From the NCBI GenBank assembly GCA_020350865.1, contig CP070726.1:2057834-2066111 (forward strand): DNA of 8,278 nt, given 5' to 3'. The stretch is from Thermoplasmata archaeon (GTDB lineage Archaea > Thermoplasmatota > Thermoplasmata > GCA-020350865). The notes under the pieces are model-generated. The model was not told the origin of the DNA and searched no databases. It saw only the letters and a list, made by a program, of their open reading frames with translations. The position numbers were made by a program, and so were the translations under genes. How positions within the stretch are numbered: the stretch's first letter is position 1; each line of letters starts with the position of its first letter. Shown here in pieces: positions 2,684-8,278 of this stretch.

Positions 2684-4948
2684 ATGAGAAAGGCACAATT
2701 TTTACTTATTGGGATGCTGCTAATTTCGGTAATCGCGGTCAACCTGCTCACCTCGATTGGTGCTGACGGGCCGAACGGAACAAGGAGCCCCGGTGCAGGC
2801 ATCGAGATCACCCCCTCTGCGAACAAAACGGGCAAACCCACCGATACCGTGAGCTATCAGTTTACAGTAAAAAACGTGGGTGACATCATCGATAATTTCA
2901 CTTTTTATGCAGAATCTCAACTATCTTGGCCTGTAAACCTATCCAAAAATATCGAGGGCCCCCTGGCCATCAATGCAACCACAACCGTTTGGGTTAACGT
3001 TACTATACCCATGGGTGTGCCAGCCGATACCGTAGACAATCTCACCTTCAGAGCCAGATCTGAAAACCAAACGTGGATTGTGGAGATGGTGAAGGTGAAC
3101 ACCACCGTAATCGAGGCCTTCATCCTTAGCATAGATATCGAAGGGGTATATGCGAAGACCTCCAGCATAGACCCACCTGGTGTGGCCAACTACACCCTAA
3201 CCGTAAAAAACAAGGGTAATGTCAATGTGACTATCACACTGAAGCATTCCTTGCCTGTAGCGGGTTGGCAGGTTGAATTCCCCAAATTTCCCAACGGGAA
3301 AGTTGCCATCGATGAAGCCAATCTCACCCATGAGGGTATAGAGAATGTTAATTTAACCATAACTGCCCCATCATCAGCACAACCAGATGATCAAATGACA
3401 ATCACTGTTTGGGGAGAGAAAACGGATACACCGCCTACCTGGTCCTCAAGGGATTATCAAGACGACATAACCATAACCACAATAGTCCAATCAAGACTGG
3501 GTGTGATATTTAATCAGGAGGAGATAGAGGGTAAGGTGGATTTCTATGATACTCTCTTCAACTTCACCATTGAGAACTCAGGGAACAAAGATATAATGAT
3601 AGATTTGACTTTGGATAAAGACCTAATTCTCGATGCGACCCTTGATCTCTATAAATTGATCGTCCGCGTGGGAGAACAACCCGTTCGCAACACCTTAAGA
3701 GTGAGCACAGCGGCCAATGCCCCGCTGGGTAATTATACGATAAATGTCTCTGCCACTGATAACGCCACAGGTGTACCTGTGGGTGGCGCGGATTTCTACT
3801 TCATTATCACTCCCAAGCTGAATGTAACCGATATCAAGGTATCGAAGGACGAGCCGATGCAGTATAAGGAAGTTACCCTGACCGCCACCATTACAAACAT
3901 CGGCTATGTCGCCGCCACTGAAATCACGGTCAAATTTTACGATGGCTCTAAGAAAATCGGGGAGTATCAGTTTGACCCTGAGTTTGTTCTCAACGCCACT
4001 GAAACCGCTGAGGCGGATATCAAATGGTCGCCCTCTGAACATGGCAACAGGACCATCAGGGTGGCTGTGGACGTGGAGGGGATAGGGAACTTCTCTTCTC
4101 ACGGTCACGGTACCGATATCGCCGAGGGGGACGTAATCATACCCGTGGAAATCAACTGGCAACCGTACTATTTCGTGATTTACATTATAATCGTGATAAT
4201 CCTGGGAATAGCCGTCATTGCCAGCCTTCTCGAACTCAGGTTCTACACAGGTGTTCCCGCAGGGGCGGGATACGATGAAATGGGTGAAGGATACGAAGAG
4301 GGTGAACTGCCCACTGAGGAGCATCCGGGTGAGGATAAACCGTTTTCATTGGAAGGCAAGGAGGAGGAAGACGAGAGGACCATAGCCCCGTTCGGTATGG
4401 AAGGCAGGGACGAGGAGTTCAAGGAGGAGCTCCCGCCCGAAAGAACGGATAGGGAGATGTTCAGACCACCCCGCAAACCCGAGAGAAAACCTTACGACAG
4501 ACCTGTTTCAAGAGCACCACCTCCACCACGTGAGCCTGCAGCCATAAGCAGGGAAAACGAGCTGAGGGATGAGATATCTGATGTGAGGGACAAGCTATAC
4601 AAGACCAAATCCATGGGAGTTGACACCAATAACATCGACAATCTCCTGACAATGGCCAAAAAGAGCCTGGACTCTGGTGATACCGACAAGGCAAAGCAGT
4701 ACATCAACTACGCGAACGATCGCCTGGGGAGCCTCATGGCAAAGCGCGAGGAAGCCGTGAGAGTGATAAGGGAGGCCAAGGAGGTTCTCTCGGGCATGAG
4801 GGACGCAGCGGATGTAACCATCGTTGAGAACTTCATTGTTAAGGCGGATTCCCTCCTGGAGAAAGGTGATTTCAGGGAGGCCATCAACTACGCAAACAAG
4901 GCAAAGGAAAGGGCCCTGAGGCTCCAGAGAAGGGAGATGCGGTTGTAA
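2684..4948 (+). CDS. Cell-surface protein with NEW3/CARDB-type Ig-like repeats, one membrane helix and a cytoplasmic helical-repeat domain
   Basis: The 754-residue protein starts with a Sec-type signal (MRK, then hydrophobic residues about 5-24). Residues about 40-378 contain three beta-sandwich repeats, each marked by a segment such as SYQFTVKNVGD, NYTLTVKNKGN or NFTIENSGN, as in the NEW3/COG1470 type. Residues about 380-475 form a CARDB-like domain (LTATITNIGYVAATEITVKF). A single strong membrane helix lies at about 496-518. The inner part has an acidic low-complexity linker (530-580), a Pro/Arg-rich stretch (580-620), and a helical region holding two TPR-like hairpins (about 651-681 and 714-745, each with a DSGDTDKA or EKGDFREA turn). 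About 21 N-x-S/T sequons occur, all before the membrane helix and none after it, which supports this topology. The protein probably mediates surface contacts or signals inward, but no enzyme domain is visible and the function is unknown. It has its own promoter and converges on the aminomutase gene. Confidence 0.85.
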   Translation: MRKAQFLLIGMLLISVIAVNLLTSIGADGPNGTRSPGAGIEITPSANKTGKPTDTVSYQFTVKNVGDIIDNFTFYAESQLSWPVNLSKNIEGPLAINATTTVWVNVTIPMGVPADTVDNLTFRARSENQTWIVEMVKVNTTVIEAFILSIDIEGVYAKTSSIDPPGVANYTLTVKNKGNVNVTITLKHSLPVAGWQVEFPKFPNGKVAIDEANLTHEGIENVNLTITAPSSAQPDDQMTITVWGEKTDTPPTWSSRDYQDDITITTIVQSRLGVIFNQEEIEGKVDFYDTLFNFTIENSGNKDIMIDLTLDKDLILDATLDLYKLIVRVGEQPVRNTLRVSTAANAPLGNYTINVSATDNATGVPVGGADFYFIITPKLNVTDIKVSKDEPMQYKEVTLTATITNIGYVAATEITVKFYDGSKKIGEYQFDPEFVLNATETAEADIKWSPSEHGNRTIRVAVDVEGIGNFSSHGHGTDIAEGDVIIPVEINWQPYYFVIYIIIVIILGIAVIASLLELRFYTGVPAGAGYDEMGEGYEEGELPTEEHPGEDKPFSLEGKEEEDERTIAPFGMEGRDEEFKEELPPERTDREMFRPPRKPERKPYDRPVSRAPPPPREPAAISRENELRDEISDVRDKLYKTKSMGVDTNNIDNLLTMAKKSLDSGDTDKAKQYINYANDRLGSLMAKREEAVRVIREAKEVLSGMRDAADVTIVENFIVKADSLLEKGDFREAINYANKAKERALRLQRREMRL

Positions 4949-4953
4949 AAAAA
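4947..4953 (-). terminator. Oligo-T terminator of the aminomutase gene
   Basis: Seven T residues on the minus strand directly follow the TGA stop of the aminomutase gene, with no hairpin, as in archaeal U-tract termination. The same bases include part of the TAA stop of the convergent surface-protein gene. Confidence 0.5.
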
Positions 4954-6750
4954 TCAATAATAATACCATATGCTCCTGTAGTCCCTTAAGTTCTCCCCTC
5001 TTTCCTCCAGTTTTTTAAGGTAGCTTCCGATGGGGACATCCTCGTAGATGTAGGGTGCAACCCTGTTGAGGTTCTTCTCCCAAGGATGGAAGGAATAGGC
5101 CCTTCTGCCATCCGGCAATATCGATATCAATTCATGGTCCTGCCAGGCCCGGAGGTGGTTCTTGCCGAGGAAAGGCACGTTGAAAACAGGTTCATCCGAG
5201 CGGAAGATCCCGGGCAGAAGCCGTGCCTCCTCCTTGCGCTCCTGTAGTATCCTGGCCACAGGTACAGCATAGTCAATTATCTCGGATTTCCCCTTCATGT
5301 TGAAATTGTAATAGGGGTCCACTCCGATCTGTTTGATTGCGATCCTTAAAGCCACGGTTTCGAATCGCCTGGAACCTGCAAAGGTGTACACCTGCTGATT
5401 GTAGATATGGAGACCCTGTTTTTTTACCATCTGAACGGCCCTGGCGGTTTCTGGTGTAACCTCGTAGGCGTGCGAAAAATGCGTAACCATGCATAGCGTC
5501 TGTTTGCCAACCTCGTAATAGCTGCCGAGGATTTCGGCCAGCTCCGGGGTGATCCTCTGGGGCACGGTTATGGGTATGCGTGTGGCTATCCTGATACTTC
5601 GGAGATGAGGCAATTCACTCAGTCTCGAAAGAACATAATCCATCTTGCTGTCGCTCATAACCAACGGATCTCCGCCGGTAATAAGGACATCCATCATCTG
5701 CTCATGTTCAGCGAACCAGTCCAACGCCGAATCGAGTTTCTGCTTGGGCGCCTCCGCAGTCTCCATTAAAGGGGATGTTATCTCCCAGTTGCGCTGGCAG
5801 TACACACAGATCTGGGGACATGAATCGTACGGTTTGATAATGGCCACTCTGGGGTAGCGTCTGGTGACAAGACCGACGGGGGATGTATCGTGCTCGCGCA
5901 TGAAGTCAAAGGCAATCTCTCTATCATCCTTGTGGGCCACCATGTTCTCACAGTAGGTTTTCGGCGGGAATACCTGCCTCCTCACTGTAAAATCGTTACC
6001 ATCGGGCTCAAAATCCATGACATGAAGGTAATGGGGTGTGACGCCGAAGGGCACACCGTTTTCAACAGCGAGTTTTATCCCTTCTTCCTCCTCCGGCCTC
6101 AATTTTATGAGCTTCTTGATGTTTTCTAATCCCTTTTCGTCCTTGAAAATATGCCTGAACTGCCATCTCCAGTCGTTCCAGTCATCCTGGGTGGCATCAA
6201 ACAACTGCATGATGCGCTTTTTATTCTCATCTCGCCTCTCGATTATTTCGGGCTCAAGGCCGCTTCTATACCGGGAAACATACTCGTTCATCTGCTGACC
6301 CATGATGTCCAAGAAATTTGAACGCATGATCCCTGCTTCCCTGCCTTTATACCGCTCAAAATCAGGGTATTCTATGCCGTTCATGAGTGTGGATGGGTAC
6401 ACATCAGCCTGTCCCTTTATGGCCTTGAAGAGGTGCTCGAACTCAGAGATAAAATCATCGGCAACATCGGTATCGCCCTCAACCGCAGCAGCCCAGAGAT
6501 GCTCCAAGGCCGAAAATCCCACATAGCGCTCGTTTCTCGGTGAAATAATGTTTTTGAAACAGCGCACAGCCTCCTTGAGTATGATGTAATCCCATGATCT
6601 GATCTGTACAACGTCCCTCCGGTAAGACCATTCCATTGCTTCAAGATGATGGATGAGCTTTTCCCTCGCCCCCTCGAGGGTATTGCTTTCCTTGAGCATA
6701 GCATATATCTCGGGACTCGCGTCCCAGCAGTTCTCCCATCTGCTCGTCAT
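4954..6750 (-). CDS. eam: Radical SAM, PLP-dependent aminomutase of the KamA family; probable glutamate 2,3-aminomutase
   Basis: This cytoplasmic enzyme would move an alpha-amino group to the beta carbon using a [4Fe-4S] cluster, SAM and PLP. The cluster motif CPQICVYC gives Cys311, Cys315 and Cys318. The GGDPL motif follows at 359-363, and the PLP lysine is probably Lys530 in VPFLGK, equivalent to Lys337 of Clostridium subterminale lysine 2,3-aminomutase (LAM). By hand alignment, the two LAM aspartates that hold the lysine side chain (Asp293 and Asp330) are Lys486 (in PYYNFNMKGK) and Asn524 (in VFNVP). The published glutamate 2,3-aminomutase of Clostridioides difficile has this same Lys/Asn pair, so beta-glutamate is the likely product. 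Arg320 matches the carboxylate-binding Arg134. The protein is about 180 residues longer than LAM, nearly all at the N-terminus. No ablB-like acetyltransferase is adjacent, which argues against N-acetyl-beta-lysine synthesis. The ATG at 6750 has a GGGGGAG ribosome site nine bases before it. The family call is firm; the substrate is inferred. Confidence 0.9.
   Translation of the reverse strand: MTSRWENCWDASPEIYAMLKESNTLEGAREKLIHHLEAMEWSYRRDVVQIRSWDYIILKEAVRCFKNIISPRNERYVGFSALEHLWAAAVEGDTDVADDFISEFEHLFKAIKGQADVYPSTLMNGIEYPDFERYKGREAGIMRSNFLDIMGQQMNEYVSRYRSGLEPEIIERRDENKKRIMQLFDATQDDWNDWRWQFRHIFKDEKGLENIKKLIKLRPEEEEGIKLAVENGVPFGVTPHYLHVMDFEPDGNDFTVRRQVFPPKTYCENMVAHKDDREIAFDFMREHDTSPVGLVTRRYPRVAIIKPYDSCPQICVYCQRNWEITSPLMETAEAPKQKLDSALDWFAEHEQMMDVLITGGDPLVMSDSKMDYVLSRLSELPHLRSIRIATRIPITVPQRITPELAEILGSYYEVGKQTLCMVTHFSHAYEVTPETARAVQMVKKQGLHIYNQQVYTFAGSRRFETVALRIAIKQIGVDPYYNFNMKGKSEIIDYAVPVARILQERKEEARLLPGIFRSDEPVFNVPFLGKNHLRAWQDHELISILPDGRRAYSFHPWEKNLNRVAPYIYEDVPIGSYLKKLEERGENLRDYRSIWYYY
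5011..5016 (+). terminator. Possible T-tract terminator for the surface-protein transcript
   Basis: A T6 run preceded by a pyrimidine-rich stretch lies about 60 bases after the surface-protein stop, inside the 3' end of the convergent aminomutase gene. No other plus-strand T tract occurs between the stop and this point. The call is weak because the position is coding on the other strand. Confidence 0.25.
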
Positions 6751-6854: not shown

Positions 6855-7043
6855 CTACAATTTCTGCCCTCCTACCTCCAATTCGGTGTTAAGTTTCCTT
6901 GCATCCTTTGGAGGAATTCGCCCCTTGGCAACCTGTTTCTCTTCGAATTTCTGGTGAAGGTCATCATTGGGTGTGGAGGCCATTACCTCCTCTTTCCACA
7001 TCTCTATCCACATTCTTATTTTAGCGGGTGCTAATATTGACAT
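6855..7043 (-). CDS. Small protein of unknown function, 62 aa
   Basis: The family is not recognised. The gene is accepted because AAGGAGG sits seven bases before the ATG at 7043, one of the best ribosome sites in the window, and a TATA box lies further upstream at 7114-7123. The protein is soluble and mostly helical in character, with an amphipathic N-terminus (MWIEMWKEEVM) and a charged middle with many Lys, Glu and Asp. It has no cysteine, signal peptide or membrane segment, so a zinc ribbon is excluded. It ends with TAG. It lies 104 bases upstream of the aminomutase gene on the same strand, but the aminomutase has its own promoter-like region, so co-transcription is possible but not required. 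A regulatory or accessory role for the neighbour is only a guess from position. Confidence 0.65.
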   Translation of the reverse strand: MSILAPAKIRMWIEMWKEEVMASTPNDDLHQKFEEKQVAKGRIPPKDARKLNTELEVGGQKL

Positions 7044-7258: not shown

Positions 7259-7407
7259 TTCGGCAGAACCTTCGACGATTGACGAATTACGGTTCATCGT
7301 GAAAATATGGAAAATCGTTTTCTTTTCTTCTATATGGCTGAGTGGAAAAAGTGGGCATGGGGAGACAAAATCTTGTGAAACGCAGCCAAAGAGGACAATC
7401 AAGAAGT

Positions 7408-7414
7408 AAAAAAA
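7408..7414 (-). terminator. Oligo-T terminator of the aromatic-tailed protein gene
   Basis: On the minus strand a T7 run lies in a T-rich stretch (7405-7422) about 65 bases after the TAA stop. It resembles the T7 tract ending the aminomutase gene. Confidence 0.45.
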
Positions 7415-7479
7415 TAGAAAAGAAGGTTTTTAGAGAAACTATAATAATTTCCCTAAGTTCGTCCTGTGTTCCGTTTTAT

Positions 7480-8278
7480 TTACCTGATATAGTAGTAATA
7501 CGGCCAATAGGTCGACCAGTATCCCCAGTAGCGCCAGTAGTACCAGCCGCCCCACCACCATGTGAACCACGGATACCATATGTAGTGGTAGTAGAAATGG
7601 TATCTCCAATACCAGAAGTACCATCCGTAGAACCAGTTCGGGTGATGATGCGAGTCGTACCACCATATTCGCCAGTATACGGGTATATGTCGTATGATCA
7701 CATAGCAATGGATATAGTATACCTGCTTCTCAAGGCCCTCGTCGTCTATTGTTCCGTAGTTGTTGGTAACCATACCCGCCACGATAACTTCGTCCTGTCC
7801 GTCCCCGAAAGCGAACGTCATATGAATATCATTGTCGTTGACCGATCTGAACTTCAGGGTCAGCATTGTAATATGGGAGATGTCCGTGCGGCCGCCGGTT
7901 GATTTACGGTCGAGATTCCCATTGTCAAAGCTCGCTGTCATCACATCTGGCCCCATATTTATCAGGTTGTATTGCGTCTCGTTGAAGCGGTAGTCGTATC
8001 GGCCGGTTGCCTCCATATCTTTGTTCGCCAGTTCCCCGCCGAGTATATGCCAGTCTATATTTTCCTGAATTGTGAATATTATCTTTTCTCGCTGTCCCTG
8101 ATCCTCCACATCCTCCATTTGGACTCCGTCCACATTGTATGTGACCAAATCGCCCTGTGTCTCAACGTAGCCTATCTTTTGTGTGCCCGGCTTCTGGGTT
8201 CCTCCAAGAACGTGGCTGAACGTGGCGGTAACCATTACAAAGATTAGAAGCACGGTTACCAAGCATATATACCCCTTC
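7480..8278 (-). CDS. Secreted protein of unknown family with a Trp/Tyr-rich C-terminal tail, 5' partial
   Basis: The frame is open to the right window edge (265 codons visible). The first TTG, at 8262, is probably not the start: the codons before it read KGYIC and continue the basic-then-hydrophobic pattern of a signal peptide (to about VTATFSHVLGG), so the true start is likely just beyond 8278. A polar segment of about 170 residues with alternating beta-type patterns follows (KIIFTIQENIDWHILGG, ITMLTLKFRSVNDNDIHMTF). It has one or two sequons and matches no family I know. The last 66 residues hold about 17 Trp, 19 Tyr, 4 Phe and 5 His, ending in WPYYYYIR before TAA. Tyr codons in the tail mix TAC and TAT, and the signal peptide and ordinary N-terminal domain argue that this strand is coding. 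The tail may act at the membrane interface or in adhesion. No function is assigned. Confidence 0.75.
   Translation of the reverse strand, partial: KGYICLVTVLLIFVMVTATFSHVLGGTQKPGTQKIGYVETQGDLVTYNVDGVQMEDVEDQGQREKIIFTIQENIDWHILGGELANKDMEATGRYDYRFNETQYNLINMGPDVMTASFDNGNLDRKSTGGRTDISHITMLTLKFRSVNDNDIHMTFAFGDGQDEVIVAGMVTNNYGTIDDEGLEKQVYYIHCYVIIRHIPVYWRIWWYDSHHHPNWFYGWYFWYWRYHFYYHYIWYPWFTWWWGGWYYWRYWGYWSTYWPYYYYIR

Follow-up and report, generated by a model that had tools for sequence, protein, structure and literature searches.

The DNA analysed here, referred to as the window, is a stretch of 8,278 nucleotides from a Thermoplasmata archaeon (contig CP070726.1, positions 2,057,834 to 2,066,111). 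Its last part carries, on the minus strand, an open frame encoding 265 residues of a protein whose 5' end lies beyond the window edge, with about 8 N-terminal residues falling outside (Table 1). The last 66 residues of this protein (residues 200-265, window 7483-7680), which include WWWGGWYYWRYW, comprise 17 Trp, 19 Tyr, 4 Phe, and 5 His; these counts had been given in a reading made from the letters alone (the sequence-only reading) and were reproduced exactly on recounting. Trp, Tyr, and Phe make up more than half of the tail stretch, against a background of 1.1% Trp, 3.9% Tyr, and 4.3% Phe when the window's other four long proteins are pooled (2190 residues). Trp is as a rule one of the least abundant residues in proteins and one of the most expensive to make.

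Table 1: Features of the aromatic-tail protein gene, in window coordinates.
Feature	Position	Strand	Basis
Aromatic-tail protein gene	7480..8277	-	Open frame and four closely related proteins (259-279 aa)
Incomplete hydrophobic leader at the N terminus, either a signal peptide or a membrane anchor (residues 1-26)	8200..8277	-	Aligned to the complete leaders of P0002, P0003, and P0005
Core domain, residues 27-201, helices then antiparallel beta sheet (predicted)	7675..8199	-	AlphaFold2
Thr171-Asn172 of the core, invariant in 98/98 aligned members	7762..7767	-	Alignment A3
Aromatic tail domain, residues 202-265	7483..7674	-	Alignments; ten invariant columns
DSHHHPNW loop, residues 208-215	7633..7656	-	Last His and Trp in 107/107 motif-bearing members; HHH in 73
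Predicted aromatic helix 1, residues 215-229	7591..7635	-	Aligned (A3) to AlphaFold2 helix 200-214 of P0017
Predicted aromatic helix 2, residues 238-251	7525..7566	-	Aligned to AlphaFold2 helix 223-235 of P0017

The tail DNA was base-shuffled 20,000 times, and the maximum obtained was 16 aromatic residues compared with the 40 observed; this null is crude, and conservation provides the better argument for a real tail. A P/V-rich ORF of 186 aa on the plus strand (window 7342-7902) overlaps the tail gene in antisense, and the tail would be an artefact of the wrong frame if this ORF were the true gene. When the 69 tail codons were compared with those of a located relative (L001; CP070739.1, Methanomassiliicoccales MAG bin396), 5, 6, and 24 differences were found at minus-frame codon positions 1, 2, and 3, respectively, and the antisense frame of the relative contained three stops within the tail stretch. 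The minus frame is also supported by 107 homologues. The plus-strand reading was rejected on the basis of these stops and of the concentration of substitutions at minus-frame position 3, and it is almost certainly wrong; the claim that the tail is not random frame noise therefore stands. The P/V-rich ORF, broken in the relative, is a side effect of the Trp and Tyr codons of the opposite strand. Low-complexity noise was likewise ruled out by the shuffle test together with the invariant positions and low dN of the tail described below. A ribosome-binding-site-like stretch, GGAGGGAGG, was found upstream of the gene in the relative.

Homologues were searched for using words from the N-terminal 195 residues only against 5.8 billion proteins. 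Beyond the window's own protein, four relatives were recovered, namely P0002 (Methanomassiliicoccales archaeon MAG), P0005 (Thermoplasmata archaeon MAG), and two JGI proteins, and all four carried the tail; no tail-less protein was returned by this search, which could detect those of at least 146 residues. Profile searches enlarged the family to 42 and then to 108 proteins, the window protein counted, a number to be read as a biased rate because such searches favour tail-bearing members. The tail motif H-[PK]-[NDY]-W was present in 107 of the 108 members, and the exception, P0106, is labelled partial by its source. Loss of the tail in homologues, which would have told against the sequence-only reading, was thus seen in a single, incomplete entry. 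That reading had also described the protein as archaeal. This is true of the window protein, but the family is bacterial as well: P0021, P0089, and P0106 are named Anaerolineae. The identifiers of the named Anaerolineae members are JXA93_00345, P8129_21245, and PVI63_09885. Taxon names are absent for most members, and we infer a bacterial origin for the remaining distant members from their similarity and their place in the tree.

A tree was built from the C-terminal parts in 98 rows, with 129 columns retained and 31 forks unresolved. One of its branches, with support of 100/98, had the eight archaeal-type members on one side. Proteins in which an F-L-P-L-like motif occurs internally (type B) fell within a 46-row group (96/100), in which three rows had an A label under the motif rule. 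The motif itself, a hydrophobic F-L-P-L-[VI]-like string in the middle of the core, was seen in 43 of these 46 rows (e.g., P0037 and P0063), and P0101 has a similar string after a Thr/Pro-rich stretch. P0107 (382 aa) carries an extra N-terminal domain before the core and tail, which is weakly cohesin-like (Pfam E 0.2, under the cut-off), and its later part matches the type-A core profile with a probability of 96%. These two features suggest that fusions of the module with additional surface domains may occur.

The gene was detected in one of 389 genomes from the phylum and one of 400 from the class, in both cases the same genome (G001), which was the centre of both draws. A scan of one genome per species across 84,980 species with two short peptide patterns of archaeal form returned only the locus of the located relative. 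These results indicate that few of these archaea have the gene and that its distribution among them is patchy; P0005 shows that carriers exist outside the phylum and class draws. An origin from phages or plasmids was considered and dropped: a tblastn search of phages and plasmids with one member, P0009, gave no match, and none of the 28 and 206 pattern matches from two viral-contig scans was confirmed as a relative.

Conservation was examined in alignment A3, which contains 98 of the 108 members. Ten tail columns were invariant in all 98 rows (W202, W205, H212, W215, W237, W240, W245, W251, W254, and S255), as were T171 and N172 of the core. Trp was found at positions 206, 224, 234, and 248 in 97, 92, 94, and 96 of the 98 rows, respectively, and Tyr, Phe, His, and Trp frequently interchanged at other tail positions. 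The mean column entropy was 1.21 bits for columns 197-265 (68 columns) and 1.94 bits for columns 40-196 (128 columns), and the Trp, Tyr, and Phe share of the tail ranged from 42% to 67% (median 54%) across 107 members. Comparison with the located relative, the only one on which the dN values rest, gave the same picture: identity was 61/69 in residues 197-265 and 90/168 in residues 27-196, and dN amounted to 0.067 for the tail (residues 201-265) and 0.40 for the core (residues 27-196). The pS was 0.73 in tail and core alike and thus saturated, so that the corresponding dN/dS values of 0.02 (tail) and 0.15 (core) are only rough. The suggestion that the tail is under selection was therefore borne out. 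Judged from these alignments, the tail is the most conserved part of the family protein, suggesting that it is probably the working part.

This finding amends the sequence-only reading, in which an unusual tail was attached to an ordinary secreted domain; what has been kept across archaea and bacteria is the tail rather than the N-terminal domain. In comparisons of core-only profiles, types A and B matched each other with a probability of 100%, whereas the archaeal type matched type A with a probability of 61% (E 8e-5, 34 columns, same position in the chain) and type B with a probability of 12% (E 0.0025). On this evidence, the cores of the archaeal and bacterial proteins are probably remote homologues whose sequences have diverged until hardly any likeness is left, whereas the tail was retained; alternatively, one tail could have been passed between unlike cores. 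A low-complexity adhesive or cross-linking tail, in which composition matters and order does not, would account for the extreme composition. However, the fixed Trp positions argue against a merely sticky tail, as does the fold predicted below, and we regard this explanation as very improbable. The retention of fixed positions, and not of composition alone, points instead to a folded domain.

Structure predictions were obtained for the window protein and for P0017, a bacterial-type relative. With 42 sequences, AlphaFold2 modelled the window protein with a pLDDT of 69-97 for residues 51-170 and 58-60 for residues 171-190, whereas most of the tail was below 50; in this low-confidence part, a helix spans residues 214-228, and the helix-2 region contains only a short helix at 237-240. 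With 98 sequences, the tail of P0017 reached a pLDDT of about 72-91 up to residue 240 and comprised a last beta hairpin (169-192), two helices (200-214 and 223-235), and an uncertain end, following a core of a strand, two helices, four strands, and the final hairpin. The order of secondary structure elements was nearly the same in the two models. The structure prediction called for in the sequence-only reading thus yielded a folded tail for the bacterial-type relative and a low-confidence one for the window protein itself, and the tail is predicted from the P0017 model to be a folded helical hairpin beside a beta sheet. An aromatic zipper was also sought in the periodicity of conservation, but one-sidedness was not significant for either predicted helix (P 0.18 and 0.19 at 100 degrees; 0.12 and 0.26 at 120 degrees); an extended helix-2 stretch gave an uncorrected P of 0.042 at 120 degrees and 0.68 at 100 degrees. 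Structure searches with the models (three Foldseek and two VIA-align) returned nothing above background, which does not imply a new fold.

The protein is probably exported through its N-terminal leader, as judged by a simple hydropathy rule: an N-terminal hydrophobic stretch was found in 97 of the 108 members, and the other 11 include fragments truncated at the 5' end as well as proteins whose leader is preceded by an N-terminal extension. The window copy itself is cut at its 5' end. The secreted nature proposed in the sequence-only reading is in line with this result. Since the tail has a median net charge of 0 and a median of 8% aliphatic residues and is rich in Trp and Tyr, it might act as a membrane-interface anchor, with these residues in the headgroup layer keeping the protein, once exported, attached to the cytoplasmic membrane on its outer side; the two short helices of the P0017 model would suit this role. 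Against it, P0104 and P0105 carry a lipobox-like motif and would already be anchored, yet they retain the tail. Moreover, membrane lipids differ between archaea and bacteria, and Trp positions fixed across both exceed the needs of an interfacial belt. We therefore consider such an anchor unlikely, though it deserves some weight.

The genomic context was inspected in the window and in related genomes. As judged by eye, the neighbours of the tail gene in the window are a small ORF and a radical-SAM gene, and those in the located relative are methyltransferase-like and acetyltransferase-like ORFs, with a DsbD/thioredoxin-like ORF about 6 kb away. The small ORF of the window (62 residues, 6855-7043, minus strand) lies upstream of a lysine 2,3-aminomutase-like radical SAM gene, shows 61-63% identity to ORFs in the corresponding position in two genomes of one order (L006 and L007), and has no Pfam match. 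Positions 2684-6750 of the window hold the genes for a CARDB-domain membrane protein and a KamA-like protein, a block kept in G001 and G390, two of the three genomes covered from the same order, where KamA, the small ORF (orf62), and CARDB remain together; the KamA-like protein shows 77% identity in G001 and 79% in G390. G001 also contains a second KamA-like stretch (C1:258172-259956) with 50% identity and two in-frame TAA codons, representing a pseudogene or assembly errors. The tail gene was not found beside the block in these genomes: no aromatic-rich ORF of at least 90 aa was present in the roughly 9-10 kb on the tail-gene side, a search in which L015 has a masked stretch. In G001, the tail gene lies about 2.2 Mb from the KamA block in contig coordinates, or about 1 Mb by the short way if the chromosome is circular. 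G390 and G391 gave no match to the tail gene; when WWYDS was sought as a DNA pattern, each of the two had one match, in both cases in another gene. No conserved neighbourhood was seen, and the archaeal tail gene stands alone.

A redox or metal-binding module, in which electrons or radicals would pass along stacked Trp and Tyr residues and the His cluster, or a metal would be bound by them, would be consistent with the density of Trp and Tyr and with the His-rich loop, in which HHH is kept in 73 of the 108 members. However, at least one of the first two His residues is missing in 34 of the 107 motif-bearing members, and both are missing in 11, which argues against a strict three-His metal site. 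The CxxCH haem motif of c-type cytochromes was found in none of the 108 members, and the nearest neighbour genes listed above also tell against such a module, the DsbD/thioredoxin-like ORF lying about 6 kb off in the relative. We judge this explanation to be distinctly improbable.

In the distant group, each of five contig sizes (2,890 to 12,681 bases) was recorded for a type-A protein and a type-B protein, one apiece. For 43 contigs of 2,800-20,000 bases, a limit chosen after seeing the data, 0.14 such coincidences would be expected by chance, and none of 5000 simulations reached five. Two tail-bearing paralogues, one of each type, thus seem to share contigs, a pairing that rests on equal contig sizes and not on sequence. 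Further coincidences at 1,367 and 1,496 bases paired type B with type B, and the latter was discounted because the summed coding sequence exceeds the contig. G001, the one genome searched whole that has the tail gene, contains a single copy of it, implying that a complex of two paralogues is not general.

These observations can be drawn together in a tentative mechanism. The leader would carry the protein out of the cell, where it would be surface-located or released as a member of an undescribed family. Its small alpha/beta core, as predicted, ends in a beta hairpin, and the C-terminal 65 residues would follow as the two short helices, mostly of Trp and Tyr, that were predicted for P0017. A functional face may then be formed by the H-P-N-W loop together with the invariant Trp residues and serve as a binding module, docking the protein onto a surface that favours contacts with aromatic residues. 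Candidate partners are an envelope glycan, the headgroups of lipids, or this hairpin on a second protein, and the last would fit because two tail-bearing paralogues seem to share contigs. We tentatively favour this reading, that the exported proteins of a new family use a folded aromatic hairpin as a surface docking module, at a level a little short of an even chance.

The invariant Thr, Asn, His, and Ser residues would equally suit an active site. In an enzyme or cofactor-binding protein, the aromatic residues would form the walls of a pocket holding a hydrophobic or flat ligand on which T171, N172, H212, and S255, all unchanged in the 98 rows, would act. This explanation appears rather improbable, as no significant match was obtained in Pfam or NCBIfam for the members scanned and the polar invariants could equally be helix caps and turns.

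In a bolder reading, the tail could be a new type of extracellular aromatic helical hairpin, common to archaea and Anaerolineae, in which Trp, Tyr, and Phe make up about half of some 65 residues and in many cases occupy fixed positions. Its stacked aromatic residues would either zip tail-bearing paralogues together in an assembly at the surface or relay holes or electrons; this proposal has, in our view, a low probability. Eight tryptophans have remained unchanged in 98 aligned archaeal and bacterial members while the attached core diverged almost beyond profile recognition, and the domain requires a function that no searched family supplies. Being small and modular, it makes both fold and ligand directly testable. 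It would add an aromatic-dominated domain to the known principles of protein building and perhaps reveal a surface system of little-known archaea and Anaerolineae.

The family was compared with known proteins through family libraries and the literature. The window protein matched no Pfam-A family at E<=1 and no NCBIfam family. Among the 42 members, the best E values were 0.052 in Pfam, with seven weak families only, and 0.042 in NCBIfam; a further Pfam search with seven proteins, five of them outside the 42, gave UBR1-like_wing (E 0.13, P0003) as the best match, followed by the Cohesin match of P0107. PHROGs gave one match of unknown function for five proteins (E 0.043), and PADLOC gave none at E<=0.1 for three proteins. 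In PDB sequence searches, the profile reached a best E of 0.65, and the last 80 residues alone had no match. No description of the tail family was found in the opening parts of abstracts from open-licence papers, in agreement with the statement of the sequence-only reading that no family with such a layout had been described. As neither the libraries, the structure searches, nor the literature so covered describe it, we call the aromatic-tail family a categorically new protein domain family, the mode of action of which may still be familiar.

Three kinds of known proteins come closest to the family. YXWGXW/WXXGXW repeat proteins, a Pfam family, are exported and have Trp-rich stretches; a loose [YW]xWGxW string was present in five of the 108 members (P0001-P0005), but the Pfam family was found neither for the window protein nor among the seven weak families of the 42 members. 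Choline-binding repeats and other aromatic carbohydrate-binding modules belong to surface proteins that bind ligands through exposed aromatic residues. The tail is far denser in aromatic residues and has no match to these families, and the choline-binding pattern GWx(3-7)GxWYY occurred in none of the 108 members; choline-binding repeat proteins were absent from the Pfam matches as well. Trp-rich antimicrobial peptides and tryptophan-rich antigens, as far as they are described in the abstract openings covered, likewise combine a high Trp content with membrane or cell-surface roles; compared with those descriptions, the Trp-rich part of the present family is a conserved domain joined to a core.
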